From NCBI GenBank assembly GCA_028291605.1, contig JAQGHS010000760.1:1-32070 (forward strand): DNA of 32,070 nt, in the 5' to 3' direction. The notes under the pieces are model-generated. The model saw nothing but the letters and a program-made list of their open reading frames with translations, was not told the DNA's origin and ran no database searches. The DNA is from Planctomycetaceae bacterium (GTDB lineage Bacteria; Planctomycetota; Planctomycetia; Planctomycetales; Planctomycetaceae). This document shows, piece by piece, positions 2,232-7,580 of the stretch. The position numbers and the translations under genes are program-made. The first letter of the stretch is position 1; each line of letters opens with the position of its first letter.

Positions 2232-3647
2232 ATGACGCAATCTCGCAGCCTGTTCGTACGCTGGGTGTTTTTGATTTCGGTTACGGCGGCAATCGTTGCT
2301 GGCGTATTTTGGAATCGAGATCGTTTGATGTCGCTGCTCCGTCCGACGGGGGCCGCCAAACTCGCTGAGCATCCGCCGCAACCCATTTCAGAAGCCAAGG
2401 TGCTCAAGCTGAGTGAACAGGCTCGCAAGAATCTGGGACTGGTTTCGAAGCCGGCCAAACCCCAGACATACTGGCGCACCATCCAGGTTCCCGGTGCCAT
2501 CACCGATCGACCCGGAAAATCAGATCGGGGGGTGACGTCGCCAGTCGTGGGAGTGGTCACCCAAGTTCATGCTTTTCCGGGTGATACCGTGCATCCCGGC
2601 GATCGGCTGTTCACATTGCGTCTCATTAGTGAATACATCCAGAACACGCAGTCGGAACTCTTCAAGGCGACCAAGGAATCGCAGTTGATCAGCGAGGAGA
2701 AGGTCCGCATCGAGACGCTCGCGAAGACAGGAACCGTTCCAGGATCCAAGCTGATTGAACTCAATCAGCAATTACGACGACAACTGGCCGCCATCCAGGG
2801 CTATCGTCAGGATCTGCTCACGCGAGGGCTCAACCCGGGACAGATCGAAGGCGTCACGGAGGGTCAGTTTGTGGCGTCGATCGAAGTCTTCGCGCCTCCG
2901 GCGCTGCCGGCGACCGGCTCCGCCAACTCCTCGGAATCCAAACAGGAGCAACTCGTCGATGACGCGACCACGTCGCTGGCCTATGAGGTCCAGGACCTGA
3001 AGGTCGATTTAGGTACGCAGGTTCAAGCCGGGCAGTTGCTCTCTGTTTTGGCGAACCATCATTCCCTGTACATCGCCGGTCATGCCTTCAAACAGGACGC
3101 ACCATTCCTGGAGAAAGCGGCTCAGAACGCCTGGCCGATCAACGTCGAATTCTCGGAAGATGACCACGTGTATTGGCCGACTCTTAATCAGACATTTCAT
3201 ATCCGTCACCTGTCCAATTCCATTGATGTGGAAAGTCGCACGTTTGATTTCTTCATTCCGCTCACCAATCAGTCCCGCGGCTACGAACAGGATGGCCGGA
3301 CGTTTGTCGTGTGGCGTTTCCGGCCGGGTCAGCGGGCCCGACTGCACGTCCCGGTCGAGGAACTGAAAGATGTCATCGTTCTGCCGGCCGCCGCGGTCGT
3401 GCGTGAAGGTCCCGAGGCCTACGTCTTCCGCCAGAATGGAGACCTCTTCAATCGACTTCCAGTGCATGTTTTGCATGAGGATCGACTCAATGTGGTCATC
3501 GCCAATGACGGCAGCGTGACCCCCGGACTGTACCTCGCCCAGAGCAGTGCCGCGTCGCTCAACCGCGTCCTCAAGGCGCAAGCCGCCAGCGGCATGCGTG
3601 CCGACGTCCATGTTCACGCCGACGGTACGACGCACGCGCCACATTGA
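2232..3647 (+). CDS. RND efflux periplasmic adaptor (membrane fusion protein, CusB/CzcB type)
   Basis: The 471-residue protein links an inner-membrane RND pump to an outer-membrane channel. The N terminus has one membrane anchor (SLFVRWVFLISVTAAIVAGVFW), then a first barrel/lipoyl half (VVGVVTQVHAFPGDTVHPGD), a helical hairpin (about residues 130-200, SELFKATKESQLISEEKV...), the second lipoyl half (YEVQDLKVDLGTQVQAGQ) and beta-barrel segments ending with VIVLPAAAVVREG. This order is the usual MFP order. The tail VHVHADGTTHAPH is His-rich and could bind metal. The ATG at 2232 has AGGTG eight bases upstream; an in-frame ATG 39 codons earlier would add a Ser/Arg-rich leader before the membrane anchor and is less likely. 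The stop codon lies inside the first TGATGATT repeat of the cassette that follows. The substrate is not provable from sequence; metal ions fit the neighbours. Confidence 0.88.
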   Translation: MTQSRSLFVRWVFLISVTAAIVAGVFWNRDRLMSLLRPTGAAKLAEHPPQPISEAKVLKLSEQARKNLGLVSKPAKPQTYWRTIQVPGAITDRPGKSDRGVTSPVVGVVTQVHAFPGDTVHPGDRLFTLRLISEYIQNTQSELFKATKESQLISEEKVRIETLAKTGTVPGSKLIELNQQLRRQLAAIQGYRQDLLTRGLNPGQIEGVTEGQFVASIEVFAPPALPATGSANSSESKQEQLVDDATTSLAYEVQDLKVDLGTQVQAGQLLSVLANHHSLYIAGHAFKQDAPFLEKAAQNAWPINVEFSEDDHVYWPTLNQTFHIRHLSNSIDVESRTFDFFIPLTNQSRGYEQDGRTFVVWRFRPGQRARLHVPVEELKDVIVLPAAAVVREGPEAYVFRQNGDLFNRLPVHVLHEDRLNVVIANDGSVTPGLYLAQSSAASLNRVLKAQAASGMRADVHVHADGTTHAPH

Positions 3648-3720
3648 TGATTGATGATTGATGATTTTCGATTGATGATTGATCAATTTGCGATTGACGA
3701 TTTTTGATTGATGATTTGGG
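3645..3720 (+). repeat. Left TGATGATT repeat array of the cassette
   Basis: About 75 bases are made of overlapping copies of TGATGATTGA with small changes (GATTGACGATT, GATTGATCAATT). The array begins within the adaptor's TGA stop and ends at the G-run that serves as the ribosome binding site (GGGGAGGG) of the small gene at 3731. Confidence 0.85.
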
Positions 3721-3730
3721 GAGGGACTGT

Positions 3731-4087
3731 ATGGATCAGATCGAATTGAAAAAGCGGACTAAGCAGTTTGCTTTGCGTGTTATTAAGCTTGTGGGGGCTT
3801 TGCCGGAGAGTACTGCTGGGCGGGCGATTGCTAATCAGTTGGTGCGGTCGGGACCCGCGGTGGGGGCCAATTATCGAGCAGCGTGCCGGGGACGGTCGCG
3901 AGCGGAATTCGTCGCCAAGCTAGGAATCGTCGTCGAAGAATGCGACGAAAGCGCCTTCTGGATGGAACTCATCATAGAAGGCGAACTACTCAAACCAGCC
4001 CAAGTAGAACCCCTCCTAAAAGAAGCCAACGAACTAACCGCGATCATGGTGACCACCAGAAAAACAGCCAGCACAAAACGCGAATAG
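3731..4087 (+). CDS. Four-helix-bundle protein of the 23S rRNA intervening-sequence (S23/IVP) family
   Basis: The 118-residue product shows the family's hallmarks: the opening segment KKRTKQFALRVIKLVGALP, the central RAIANQLVRSGPAVGANYRAA, then RSRAEFVAKLGIVVEECDES and FWMELIIEGELL. These correspond to the four helices (TIGR02436-like). GGGGAGGG ends four bases before the ATG at 3731 and fixes that start. Family members occur in 23S rRNA intervening sequences, as Avd accessory proteins of diversity-generating retroelements, and as solitary genes; no reverse transcriptase or variable repeat is present here. The role of solitary members is unknown. It splits an adaptor-pump gene pair that is normally contiguous, so it is probably an intruder rather than a pump subunit. 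First-half codons are G/T-rich and second-half codons A/C-rich. Confidence 0.85.
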   Translation: MDQIELKKRTKQFALRVIKLVGALPESTAGRAIANQLVRSGPAVGANYRAACRGRSRAEFVAKLGIVVEECDESAFWMELIIEGELLKPAQVEPLLKEANELTAIMVTTRKTASTKRE

Positions 4088-4091
4088 CAAT

Positions 4092-4124
4092 CCCAAATCA
4101 TCAATCATCAATCTGAAATCATCA
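4092..4124 (+). repeat. Right (inverted) repeat of the cassette
   Basis: ATCATCA words in the opposite orientation to the left array begin five bases after the small gene's stop codon. They end directly at the ATG of the RND permease. The 16-nt core at 4092-4107 is the exact reverse complement of 3705-3720. No Shine-Dalgarno sequence remains ahead of the permease start. Confidence 0.85.
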
Positions 4125-7100
4125 ATGCTCAACTTCGTCATCCGCGCCGCACTCCAATACCGCCTCCTCGTGGTCGTCCTCAGCCTGGCCTTGATGGTCT
4201 ACGGCTCGTATCTGGCCACGACGATGCCCATCGATGTGTTCCCCGATCTGGATCGGCCCCGGGTCATCATCATCACGGAATGTCCAGGACTGGCGACCGA
4301 AGAGGTGGAAACTCTCGTCACCCAGCCGATTGAGATCGCGTTGCTTGGTGCGAGCGGAGTTCAGGCGGTACGCAGCCAGACCACATCCGGCTTGAACGTC
4401 ATTTACATCGAATTTGATTGGTCGACTGAGATTCGAGCGGCGCGGCAGACGGTCCAGGAGCGACTCGCCACATTGGCTGGCATTTTGCCGGAGGGGATCC
4501 GACCGCAGATGACGCCGCCCGCGTCGATCATGGGCCAAATTGTGATTGCCGGCATCTACCGTCAGCAGGGACCCAATGGACGCGAGCTCTATCCGATCGG
4601 CAAGACCGGACTCATGGCAGAACTCAACCCCGCAGTACTGCCCGGGCCAGTTTCCATCTGGCGGCCAACGGATCGTCACCATCCGGACAAGTGGGAGGCG
4701 GTCCCGTTAGATCGAATCGAGTGGCTGGAACCTGACAGCGATGATAACGCTGCGAAGGAACAGGATCGACGCGCGATTCTCGTGATCGCCGGACAAACGC
4801 ACGAAGTCACGTTTCCGACCGTGGCATCTCGGCAAATGGCATTACGCACAATCGGAGACTGGGTGATCCGTCCGCGCCTGCTGAAGGTGACGGGTGTTGC
4901 AGAGGTCTTTCTGCAAGGTGGAGATCGGAAACAGTATCAAGTCCTCATCGATACGGCGGCTTTGCTCGAATATGACGTGACTCTGCAGAACGTCGAACAG
5001 GCGCTGAAAGGGAGCAACATCAACACGAGCGGCGGCTTCGCCATCCAGGGTGAGACCGAGCGACCGATTCGCATCCTGGGACGGCTGGGGCCCGACCCGC
5101 ACGTCGTGCTCGAGGACCTGCGAAAAGTTCCCATTAAAGTGAACACCGATCGTTCCGTGCTGCTCGGACAGGTCGCCCGGATCACCGAAGGCCCTCAGAA
5201 CAAACGCGGCGATGGCAGCATCAACGGGCGGACGGGCGTCGTCTTCACATTAGTGAAACAACCGCATATCGACACCCGTTCGCTGACCGACCGCCTGGAC
5301 GCGGCCTTGAAGGAAGCAGAAGCCTCGCTGCCTGCCGATATCGTCGTCAACTCAGAACTGTTCCGACTGAAGAACTTCATCGACCGCGGTATTTTCAATG
5401 TGGGCGAGGCCCTGGTGATTGGGGCAGTGCTCGTGCTGATCATCCTGTTCTTGTTCCTGCTGAATTTCCGTACGACATTCATCACGTTGACCGCGATCCC
5501 CCTGTCATTAGTGATCACGACGCTGGTGTTCCGCATGCTCGGCTATCTCACGGGGACTCATCTCTCAATCAATGTCATGACGCTGGGTGGCATCGCCGTG
5601 GCAATGGGTGAACTGGTCGATGATGCGATCGTCGATGTGGAGAACATCTTCCGGCGCCTGAAGGAAAACAACGCCTTGGCAACTCCCAGGTCGCCTTTGC
5701 AAGTCGTCTACGAAGCCAGCCAGGAAATTCGGAGTGCCATCGTATTTGGTACGGCAGTGGTGATCCTGGTCTTCCTGCCGTTGTTCGCGCTTTCCGGTGT
5801 GGAAGGCAGGCTATTCGCTCCATTGGGCGTCGCCTACATCGTCTCGATTCTGGCGTCACTGGCCGTCTCGCTGACCGTCACGCCGGTCCTGTCCTATTAC
5901 CTGTTGCCACAGTCAAAGGCGACACATGTGGAGCGCGACAGTCGATTACTGCAATTCCTCAAATGGGCCGCCAGTTACCTGATTCGTCTCAGCATGGCCC
6001 ATCCCGGCTGGCTGCTCGTCCTGACATGGTCCCTCGTGGGGTTTGCCGCGTGGGAAATGGCTCATCTCGGTCGAAACTTTTTGCCCCAGTTCGATGAGGG
6101 CAGCATTCTGGTGAATGTCACTTTGCCGGCCGGTTCTTCGCTGCAGGCCTCAAATCAGGTCTCCGGGACAATCGATGCCAAGTTCCGCACCATGCAGAAA
6201 ACGGCCAAGAATCCACAGGGCGAGATCATCCATTTCGTACGCCGGACTGGCCGGGCGGAGATGGACGAACATGCGGCTCCCGTCAACTCGGGCGAATACA
6301 TCCTGAGCATTAACCCCGACAGTGGCCGGCATCGCGAAGAGATCATCAAGCAACTCCTGAAGGAATTGCGGGACGAAGTTCCCGGTGTGGATATCGAAGT
6401 CGAACAGCCCCTGGCCCACCTGATCAGCCACATGGTCTCCGGTGTGTATGCACAGATTGCCATTAAGATTCACGGCGATGATCTGGATACGTTGCAACAG
6501 CTCTCGGAACGGGTCAAAGCGACGATCCAGAACATCCCCGGCATTACGCCGCCGGTGGTGGAATCGATCCAGCAAACGGAGGAACTCCAAATCAGCTTGC
6601 GGACGGATGACCTGGCTCTGCATGGGCTGACTCGGGCCTATGTCGCGCAAATCTTGCAGACGGCATTGCAGGGGGAAGTGGTCTCACAGGTGCTGGAAGG
6701 GCAACGTCGATTCGACTTGCTGGTCCGTCTCGAAGAGAACTATCGCACCGACTACGCGAACCTGGGGCGGTTGCGGATCGATCTGCCGAACAACCGCGGA
6801 CAGATTGAACTGCGGGAAGTGGCCGACGTGGGCGAAGGCACGGGCCCCAATTCGATTAACCGTGACAACGCCCGGCGGCGGATCGTCATCCGGTGCAACA
6901 CCCAGGATCGCGACCTCGCCAGTGCCGTTGCCGAAATCCAGCAGAAGGTAGCTGGGCAAGTCAGCCTGCCTGAAGGTTACTTCATCGAATACGGCGGCCA
7001 GTTCGAAAGCCAGCAGCGAGCGACGACGCTCATCCTGGTGCTGGCGGCCATCTCCGTCGTCGGGATGTTTGTCGTCTTAATGATCCTGTACCCGTCGGTG

Positions 7101-7580
7101 CGAATCGTGTTACAGATTCTGAACGCGTTACCAACCGCGTTCATCGGCGGCGTGCTGGCACTCGTCATCACGCGCCAATCACTGACGGTCGCCAGCCTGG
7201 TCGGCTTCATCTCATTGGGGGGTATTGCAGTCCGCAACGGCATTCTGCTGGTGACGCATTACTTCCATTTGATGAAGGCCGAAGGCGAGGAATTCACCCC
7301 CGAAATGGTCGTCCGCGGCAGTCTCGAGCGACTCGCGCCCGTACTGATGACGGCCCTCACGGCGGGAATTGGGCTACTGCCGCTGGTGATCGGTGGCCAG
7401 GAGCCGGGACGAGAAATCTTATATCCCGTCGCCACGGTCATTCTGGGCGGACTTGTCACGTCGACCTTCTGTGAATTCTTGATTCACCCGGGTCTGTTCT
7501 GGAGATTTAGTGGGCAGGACGCTTTAAAACTGGCGCGCCTCGATGACTCTGACGAGAACTCGGAACATTTTTTGAAGTGA
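4125..7580 (+). CDS. RND efflux permease, CusA/CzcA (heavy-metal efflux) family
   Basis: The 1151-residue product is a proton-driven inner-membrane transporter. It has an N-terminal TM helix (RLLVVVLSLALMVYGSYLA), the FPD motif typical of HME pumps (MPIDVFPDLDRPRV), porter domains, TM2-6 from about residue 425, a second porter half, and TM8-12 at the C end. TM4 reads AMGELVDDAIVDVEN (493-507). It keeps the Asp and Glu of the HME signature (D499, E506), while the first acidic position of CzcA is Ala, as in CusA; E496, D500 and D504 are extra acids. The length is about 100 residues above the usual ~1040-1050. Most of the excess is an insertion at about residues 150-235 in the first porter half. 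M434-equivalents of the CusA methionine relay cannot be assigned with certainty, though SHMVSGVYAQIAI matches the IDMLSTG region of CusA. Substrate: metal ion likely, identity open. The start abuts a repeat and lacks a ribosome binding site. Confidence 0.9.
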   Translation: MLNFVIRAALQYRLLVVVLSLALMVYGSYLATTMPIDVFPDLDRPRVIIITECPGLATEEVETLVTQPIEIALLGASGVQAVRSQTTSGLNVIYIEFDWSTEIRAARQTVQERLATLAGILPEGIRPQMTPPASIMGQIVIAGIYRQQGPNGRELYPIGKTGLMAELNPAVLPGPVSIWRPTDRHHPDKWEAVPLDRIEWLEPDSDDNAAKEQDRRAILVIAGQTHEVTFPTVASRQMALRTIGDWVIRPRLLKVTGVAEVFLQGGDRKQYQVLIDTAALLEYDVTLQNVEQALKGSNINTSGGFAIQGETERPIRILGRLGPDPHVVLEDLRKVPIKVNTDRSVLLGQVARITEGPQNKRGDGSINGRTGVVFTLVKQPHIDTRSLTDRLDAALKEAEASLPADIVVNSELFRLKNFIDRGIFNVGEALVIGAVLVLIILFLFLLNFRTTFITLTAIPLSLVITTLVFRMLGYLTGTHLSINVMTLGGIAVAMGELVDDAIVDVENIFRRLKENNALATPRSPLQVVYEASQEIRSAIVFGTAVVILVFLPLFALSGVEGRLFAPLGVAYIVSILASLAVSLTVTPVLSYYLLPQSKATHVERDSRLLQFLKWAASYLIRLSMAHPGWLLVLTWSLVGFAAWEMAHLGRNFLPQFDEGSILVNVTLPAGSSLQASNQVSGTIDAKFRTMQKTAKNPQGEIIHFVRRTGRAEMDEHAAPVNSGEYILSINPDSGRHREEIIKQLLKELRDEVPGVDIEVEQPLAHLISHMVSGVYAQIAIKIHGDDLDTLQQLSERVKATIQNIPGITPPVVESIQQTEELQISLRTDDLALHGLTRAYVAQILQTALQGEVVSQVLEGQRRFDLLVRLEENYRTDYANLGRLRIDLPNNRGQIELREVADVGEGTGPNSINRDNARRRIVIRCNTQDRDLASAVAEIQQKVAGQVSLPEGYFIEYGGQFESQQRATTLILVLAAISVVGMFVVLMILYPSVRIVLQILNALPTAFIGGVLALVITRQSLTVASLVGFISLGGIAVRNGILLVTHYFHLMKAEGEEFTPEMVVRGSLERLAPVLMTALTAGIGLLPLVIGGQEPGREILYPVATVILGGLVTSTFCEFLIHPGLFWRFSGQDALKLARLDDSDENSEHFLK

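Follow-up and report, generated by a model that had tools for sequence, protein, structure and literature searches.

How did a short gene come to lie between the two genes of an efflux adaptor-pump pair, and is it a settled member of that operon or part of a unit that moves? The question is raised by the window, that is, the whole stretch of 32,070 nucleotides analysed in this work (Planctomycetaceae bacterium, assembly GCA_028291605.1, contig JAQGHS010000760.1), in which the following features were recognized:

2232..3647, + strand: RND efflux periplasmic adaptor gene, CzcB type (upstream neighbour; ORF, with a TIGR01730 match below the curated cut-off)
3642..3720, + strand: upstream heptamer array (GATTGAT, GATTTTC, GATTGAC, GATTTTT and further units) in two phased blocks (repeat analysis)
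3731..4087, + strand: gene for a four-helix-bundle protein of 118 aa, PF05635/TIGR02436 (profiles, AlphaFold2, PDB match)
4088..4124, - strand: downstream array, the inverted counterpart, with AATCATC units, up to the pump start codon (repeat analysis)
4125..7580, + strand: CusA/CzcA family RND pump gene (downstream neighbour; TIGR00914, E 5e-213)

Organization of the cassette and its protein

The first unit of the upstream array contains the adaptor stop codon (TGA, 3645-3647), and 477 nt separate this codon from the pump ATG (4125), the sole gene in this space being the one at 3731-4087. As had been predicted, the cassette exactly fills the interval from stop to start, with nothing else in it. 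The inverted repeat had been described as a perfect match of 16 nt; the longest perfect match measured has 19 nt, and the alignment of the arms spans 38 nt with 84% identity. This pairing is not due to chance, since the arm score is 26 and none of 375 swapped arm pairs reached 20. Arrays of TGATGATT had also been proposed for the outer ends: the arrays are real, their period in the window is 7 (GATTGAT...) and not that of an 8-mer, and the upstream one extends over most of the distance to the gene. As a diagnostic arm sequence, TGATGATT was ruled out because the word varies by protein clade, other heptamers being found in the majority of copies. The RNA of the cassette folds better than 100 of 100 shuffles (z = -3.9). 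Elsewhere in the window, a His-rich ORF is preceded by an almost perfect inverted repeat (1329-1441; AACCACGAATCACACGAATTTG ... CAAATTCGTGTGATTCGTGTGATTCGTGGTT) of about 22 nt, in which a unit of 9 nt is repeated.

The window protein matches both PF05635 (E 3e-14, 53.6 bits against a cut-off of 33.8) and TIGR02436 (E 1.4e-22, 80 bits against a cut-off of 24), and by these profiles it is assigned to PF05635. Its single-chain AlphaFold2 model is a four-helix bundle (pLDDT 95.7) that matches the PDB structures 2RLD (TM about 0.86) and 2GSC (about 0.83), each of which contains five chains; the next structural match is Avd of the diversity-generating retroelements. The Xanthomonas family member Xcc0516 is reported to be a homopentamer (PMC4990558). 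Profile searches (PF/TIGR) of the cassette retrieved no transposase, nuclease or reverse-transcriptase domain, searches with Rfam, PHROGs and PADLOC returned nothing useful, and no rRNA match was present within positions 3000-5000 of the window. Where computable, dN/dS ranged from 0.02 to 0.14, some dS values being close to saturation, and the family protein is under purifying selection.

Fourfold synonymous sites of the window gene (3731-4087) and of 187 homologous genes are G/T-rich in the first half of the gene and A/C-rich in the second, a keto/amino gradient with a combined z of 10.7 (136 of 188 genes; control 0.7; window alone z 5.3). Folding within the gene was rejected as the cause of this gradient, because the gene alone folds no better than controls.

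Inverted heptamer arms across the protein family

The family was searched in 59 related genomes, 40 of which harbor copies, and the arms were analyzed in 94 full copies with both flanks, a pair being counted at a score of at least 14. According to this threshold, terminal inverted repeats, a trait of insertion sequences, are present in 69 of the 94 copies, compared to 7 of 375 when the flanks of different copies were paired; about a quarter of the copies in relatives are without paired arms. A period-7 score of at least 10 was obtained for 84 of 188 flanks and for 3 of 376 random control stretches, which are mostly coding, so that the swapped-flank control and the background array densities matter here. 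Comparable enrichment was seen at no other period except 14, a multiple of 7. The best period among the 69 armed copies is 7 in 60 and 8 in six, four of the latter falling within one well-supported clade of six proteins. The cassettes measure about 410-610 bp, many of the genomes being MAGs, with approximate gene starts and fuzzy arm boundaries. In one sub-branch of the family (L029, L031, L035 and L036), a purine-rich nested inverted sequence without clear heptamer arms is found upstream, and in L029 and L031 it comes after the apparent end of a tRNA gene.

Does the repeated word belong to the site or to the protein? Considering only copies at different sites, arm similarity tracks protein identity (Mantel r 0.45; best of 2000 permutations 0.13), the unit being shared by 0.8% of pairs at less than 25% protein identity and by 51% of those at 55-70%. 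Distant proteins at the same junction have different units, and the unit logos of other protein clades give other words. These comparisons demonstrate, at the level of sequence, that the heptamer word belongs to the protein clade and not to the site.

The closest named matches of the window protein, among the matches listed, carry Planctomycetota and Acidobacteria labels. A cross-phylum set was then assembled from the window's clade only, comprising 80 of at least 551 loci, at 55-75% identity to the window protein, plus 13 plasmid loci; arms scoring at least 14 occur in 58 of these 93 loci, with period 7 in 54 of the 58. According to their titles, from which the phylum labels are taken and many of which refer to MAGs, the armed records belong to Planctomycetota, Verrucomicrobiota, Lentisphaerota, Kiritimatiellota, Acidobacteriota, Chloroflexota, Patescibacteria, Cloacimonadota (period 8), Hydrogenedentota, Nitrospinota, Bacteroidota, Rhodothermota, several proteobacterial groups, Cyanobacteriota and Spirochaetota. 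Arms of the (GATTKNN)n type accompany the window clade in at least 12 phyla. Members of different phyla are intermingled in the protein tree, and horizontal spread is therefore likely, bearing in mind that bins can be contaminated.

In the unit G-A-T-T-K-N-N, four letters are conserved (0.9-1.5 bits), one is G/T and two are free (0.10 and 0.01 bits), the logo having been built from arms chosen for pairing, which favours regular arrays. Within the window clade, an array is present upstream in 82% and downstream in 55% of cases (shuffled 3.6%). Exactly five consecutive units represent the upstream mode (45 of 80 at the permissive threshold, 35 of 80 at the strict one), and five units are also the mode downstream; the arrays of other clades have about four to five units, with fuzzy ends. 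The window copy departs from this mode, with about 7+5 units upstream and 7 downstream at the permissive threshold.

Arrays were also found where no gene accompanies them. The original prediction had called for a search for TGATGATT-type arrays elsewhere in the window genome, and such geneless arrays do exist there: TGATGAT inverted pairs, located by pattern only, occur at two other places, one of them clearly between a stop and a start codon. In both (L269, G000:C905:4917-4990, and L270, G000:C425:1-60), a similar GAAATTCCA end lies just before an ATG. Moreover, a genome with seven family genes harbors 20 period-7 arrays in 360 kb, compared to one in 400 kb for a genome without (single genomes in each case), and 17 of these 20 are similar to the resident arms, where random sets of foreign arms gave 6.2 on average and 16 at most. 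GATT arrays are also numerous in some genomes that lack a cognate gene, which implies that arrays can persist after the loss of their genes, or that others can move them; across whole genomes, the association of GATT arrays with window-clade genes is only weak, many arrays being without a cognate gene. The backwards control pattern TTAGNNNx4 is abundant in three genomes (G002, G003 and G040; 30-65 hits) and represents another heptamer class; G002 also has a family gene with CTAATGA arms.

In principle, the arrays might be ordinary slippage-prone heptamer repeats of the host, beside which the gene inserts or survives with no functional link. Heptamer repeats are indeed abundant in some genomes without a cognate gene, and heptamers are known from genomes with no reported link to this family (PMC4692102, PMC4679880). 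We strongly disfavour this explanation and regard it as very improbable: the arm word tracks the protein clade across sites and genomes, one word and one protein clade recur together in many phyla, five units form a sharp mode, and two of the seven positions are free, as pure slippage would not leave them.

Filled and empty junctions

If the cassette moves, junctions without it should be found. Empty adaptor-pump junctions, as anticipated by the original prediction, were detected in many relatives and in the window genome itself. The junction is 2-15 nt long in 16 relatives or paralogues, including the second adaptor-pump pair of the window genome (stop TAG, then aaaatactccg, then ATG), and 39-93 nt in three more. 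The filled junction measures 477 nt in the window and 562 nt in a relative of the same genus; it is also filled in two related genomes (G018 and G051) and in a Planctomycetaceae MAG (L162), and the occupants in G018 and G051 include one from another protein clade, whose word is of the GGAGAGC type. A stable operon member would have been expected at this junction everywhere and without repeats. What we found are different clades with different arms, and the empty junctions together with the polyphyletic occupants rule out a stable operon member.

A second junction, in a microcompartment-like operon, spans 9-60 nt in many relatives and 423-466 nt when filled, and in some genomes it contains arrays without the gene. 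Overall, co-directional genes lie on both sides of 52 of the 69 armed cassettes, and a co-directional upstream stop codon is placed near the outer end of the arm in 63 of the 69 (within 16 nt in about 50). The comparison of these loci demonstrates that arms and gene behave as one unit, which has entered the short spacers of co-directional gene pairs many times, the insertion typically abutting the upstream stop codon.

The one close pair of a filled and an empty site comes from Nostoc sp. C052. The cassette on its plasmid pC052_A has terminal inverted repeats that match perfectly over 36 bp, and its left joint lies in the last codons of the upstream gene. Plasmid pC052_D of this strain, with about 95% identity where the two can be aligned, has a different sequence of about 200 bp in place of the cassette, and the arrangement of pC052_D around the joint is matched by four further Nostoc plasmid loci. 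The cassette insertion replaced host sequence. No target-site duplication was seen in this one close pair, where about 200 bp were replaced, the older sites being too diverged. The Dolichospermum copy (L153) and the Nostoc copy share about 78-82% identity in the cassette only, and their flanks are unrelated. Several plasmid copies (L147, L148, L149, L151, L152 and L153) reside in defence or restriction operons (DrmD-MmeI, helicase-methylase, DUF1156-Swt1) or adjoin cas1.

These data demonstrate mobility of the cassette on an evolutionary scale, as read from sequence comparison. The proposal that solitary members of the family travel as small mobile cassettes is backed by the empty sites, the geneless arrays and the occupancy by mixed clades.

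The same loci can be viewed at the RNA level. RNase III could cut the hairpin that the arms form in a polycistronic mRNA, as it does in the intervening sequences of 23S rRNA, so that the cassette would be a device for processing or uncoupling the mRNA, with an autoregulatory RNA-binding protein, and its movement would be rare and incidental. The location between co-directional genes, the strong RNA fold, the more frequent retention of the upstream array (82% against 55%) and the occurrence of the family in intervening sequences cleaved by RNase III (PMC4990558) all agree with it; geneless copies, similarity limited to the cassette and repeated independent insertion indicate mobility, and for a hairpin alone the period of 7 and the clade-specific word would both be unnecessary. 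As the whole explanation we consider it unlikely; it is compatible with a mobile element, and both can be true.

A retro-element acting in trans can also be considered, in which the protein, like Avd, would work with a reverse transcriptase from another locus, and DNA copies of the cassette RNA would be made at nicked junctions. The protein shares its fold with Avd, PF05635 has been described as resembling Avd (PMC10053308), reverse transcriptases occur in 54 of the 59 genomes, and host sequence was replaced by the Nostoc insertion. Four carriers of family members (G015, G040, G042 and G043), some of them incomplete assemblies, have no RVT_1 match, and the almost identical arms of G015 suggest recent activity; we judge this explanation improbable. 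Dependence on a reverse transcriptase as judged by co-occurrence was rejected, the comparison being mostly uninformative (nearly all genomes have one) and four carriers being without.

A possible mechanism and its relation to known systems

The window cassette is best explained, on the comparisons above, as one copy of a widespread class of mini mobile elements, each consisting of a PF05635 gene between clade-specific inverted heptamer arrays. We consider it fairly probable that it is a small mobile element encoding a ring-shaped protein, each subunit of which binds one heptamer of the element's own terminal arrays; both the binding and the chemistry of transposition are inferred. The protein would form a pentameric ring, as its crystallised relatives do, and bind the array with one heptamer (four fixed letters, one G/T and two free) per subunit. 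The ligand would probably be single-stranded DNA or RNA, since a period of 7 nt mismatches the turn of duplex DNA, and the two free letters per word look like a spacer between contacts. A comparable case is TRAP, the trp RNA-binding attenuation protein, a ring protein that reads tandem short leader motifs with free spacer letters; it serves as an analogy for the mechanism only, having an unrelated fold, an 11-fold ring and a different period, and not being mobile.

Binding to the array before the gene could regulate the gene, and the transcribed upstream array could serve such autoregulation, a role that would account for its retention where the downstream arm has decayed. Binding to both DNA ends could bring them together; since each strand of the element starts with a GATT array, the 5' end of either one could be held by a ring. 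The joined ends might recruit host replication or repair enzymes, or a nuclease in trans, by which the unit would be copied elsewhere. Inverted arrays that lack the gene would represent non-autonomous copies, mobilised in trans.

A broader proposal is made tentatively, and with more doubt than conviction: a new class of element in which a pentameric ring of four-helix bundles reads five tandem clade-specific heptamers and moves without its own transposase, the 23S rRNA intervening sequences and the orphan heptamers of Xanthomonas, cyanobacteria and Beggiatoaceae being its offshoots. If true, this would assign both function and ligand to a "hypothetical" protein family that is very common, would link the intervening sequences of 23S rRNA to heptamer repeats and to the Avd fold, and would provide a reason for the over-represented seven-letter repeat period of many bacterial genomes, which was left unexplained (PMC4692102). 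A mobile package of gene plus arrays may explain the long-puzzling heptamer repeats of many bacterial genomes.

Such published heptamers include the simple repeats GGGAATC of Xanthomonas and GGGGATT of Nostoc (PMC4692102) and TAACTGA of Beggiatoaceae (PMC4679880). Like the arms, they form intergenic period-7 arrays, in Xanthomonas often as inverted pairs; compared by word alone, GGGAATC (GATTCCC on the other strand) and GGGGATT (GATTGGG in another phase) both fit GATTNNN. They differ in that no link to a protein gene was reported in either study, and among the open PMC literature, preprints being outside the scope, we found no paper linking the PF05635 family to heptamer repeats.

The 23S rRNA intervening sequences with an S23/IVP ORF (e.g., that of Coxiella, PMC4990558) share with the cassette the protein family, a small ORF within an inverted repeat and a sporadic distribution; the one of Coxiella, with 428 nt, is of similar size (PMC4990558). 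Their stem-forming terminal inverted repeats have a counterpart in the window, as judged from the 38-nt arms and the RNA fold. The cassette differs in lying between protein genes, in its clade-specific heptamer arms and in its copies at many sites. The predicted tie to these sequences stands as far as the shared protein family goes, and nothing beyond it was found, a simple motif screen having revealed no copy in 23S rRNA among those examined.

REPIN/RAYT systems (PMC3116915, PMC2817692) are similar in that inverted short repeats flank a gene and the repeat type co-varies with the protein lineage. Geneless inverted copies dispersed between genes may be a further resemblance: in one genome 17 of 20 arrays match the resident arms, and other genomes have arrays without a cognate gene. 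In contrast, the cassette encodes a four-helix bundle without a recognised catalytic site instead of a Y1 HUH transposase, and its repeats are tandem heptamers where those of REPIN/RAYT are REP palindromes. Avd of the diversity-generating retroelements has the same fold and belongs to a related family (PMC10053308), whereas in the window no reverse transcriptase is adjacent to the cassette, the three RVT_1 matches of the window genome lying on other contigs (C917, C253 and C470). With no Y1 transposase, a position outside rRNA and no adjacent reverse transcriptase, the element fits none of these three classes, that is, REPIN-RAYT, the 23S rRNA intervening sequence and the Avd retroelement, and is placed outside them.
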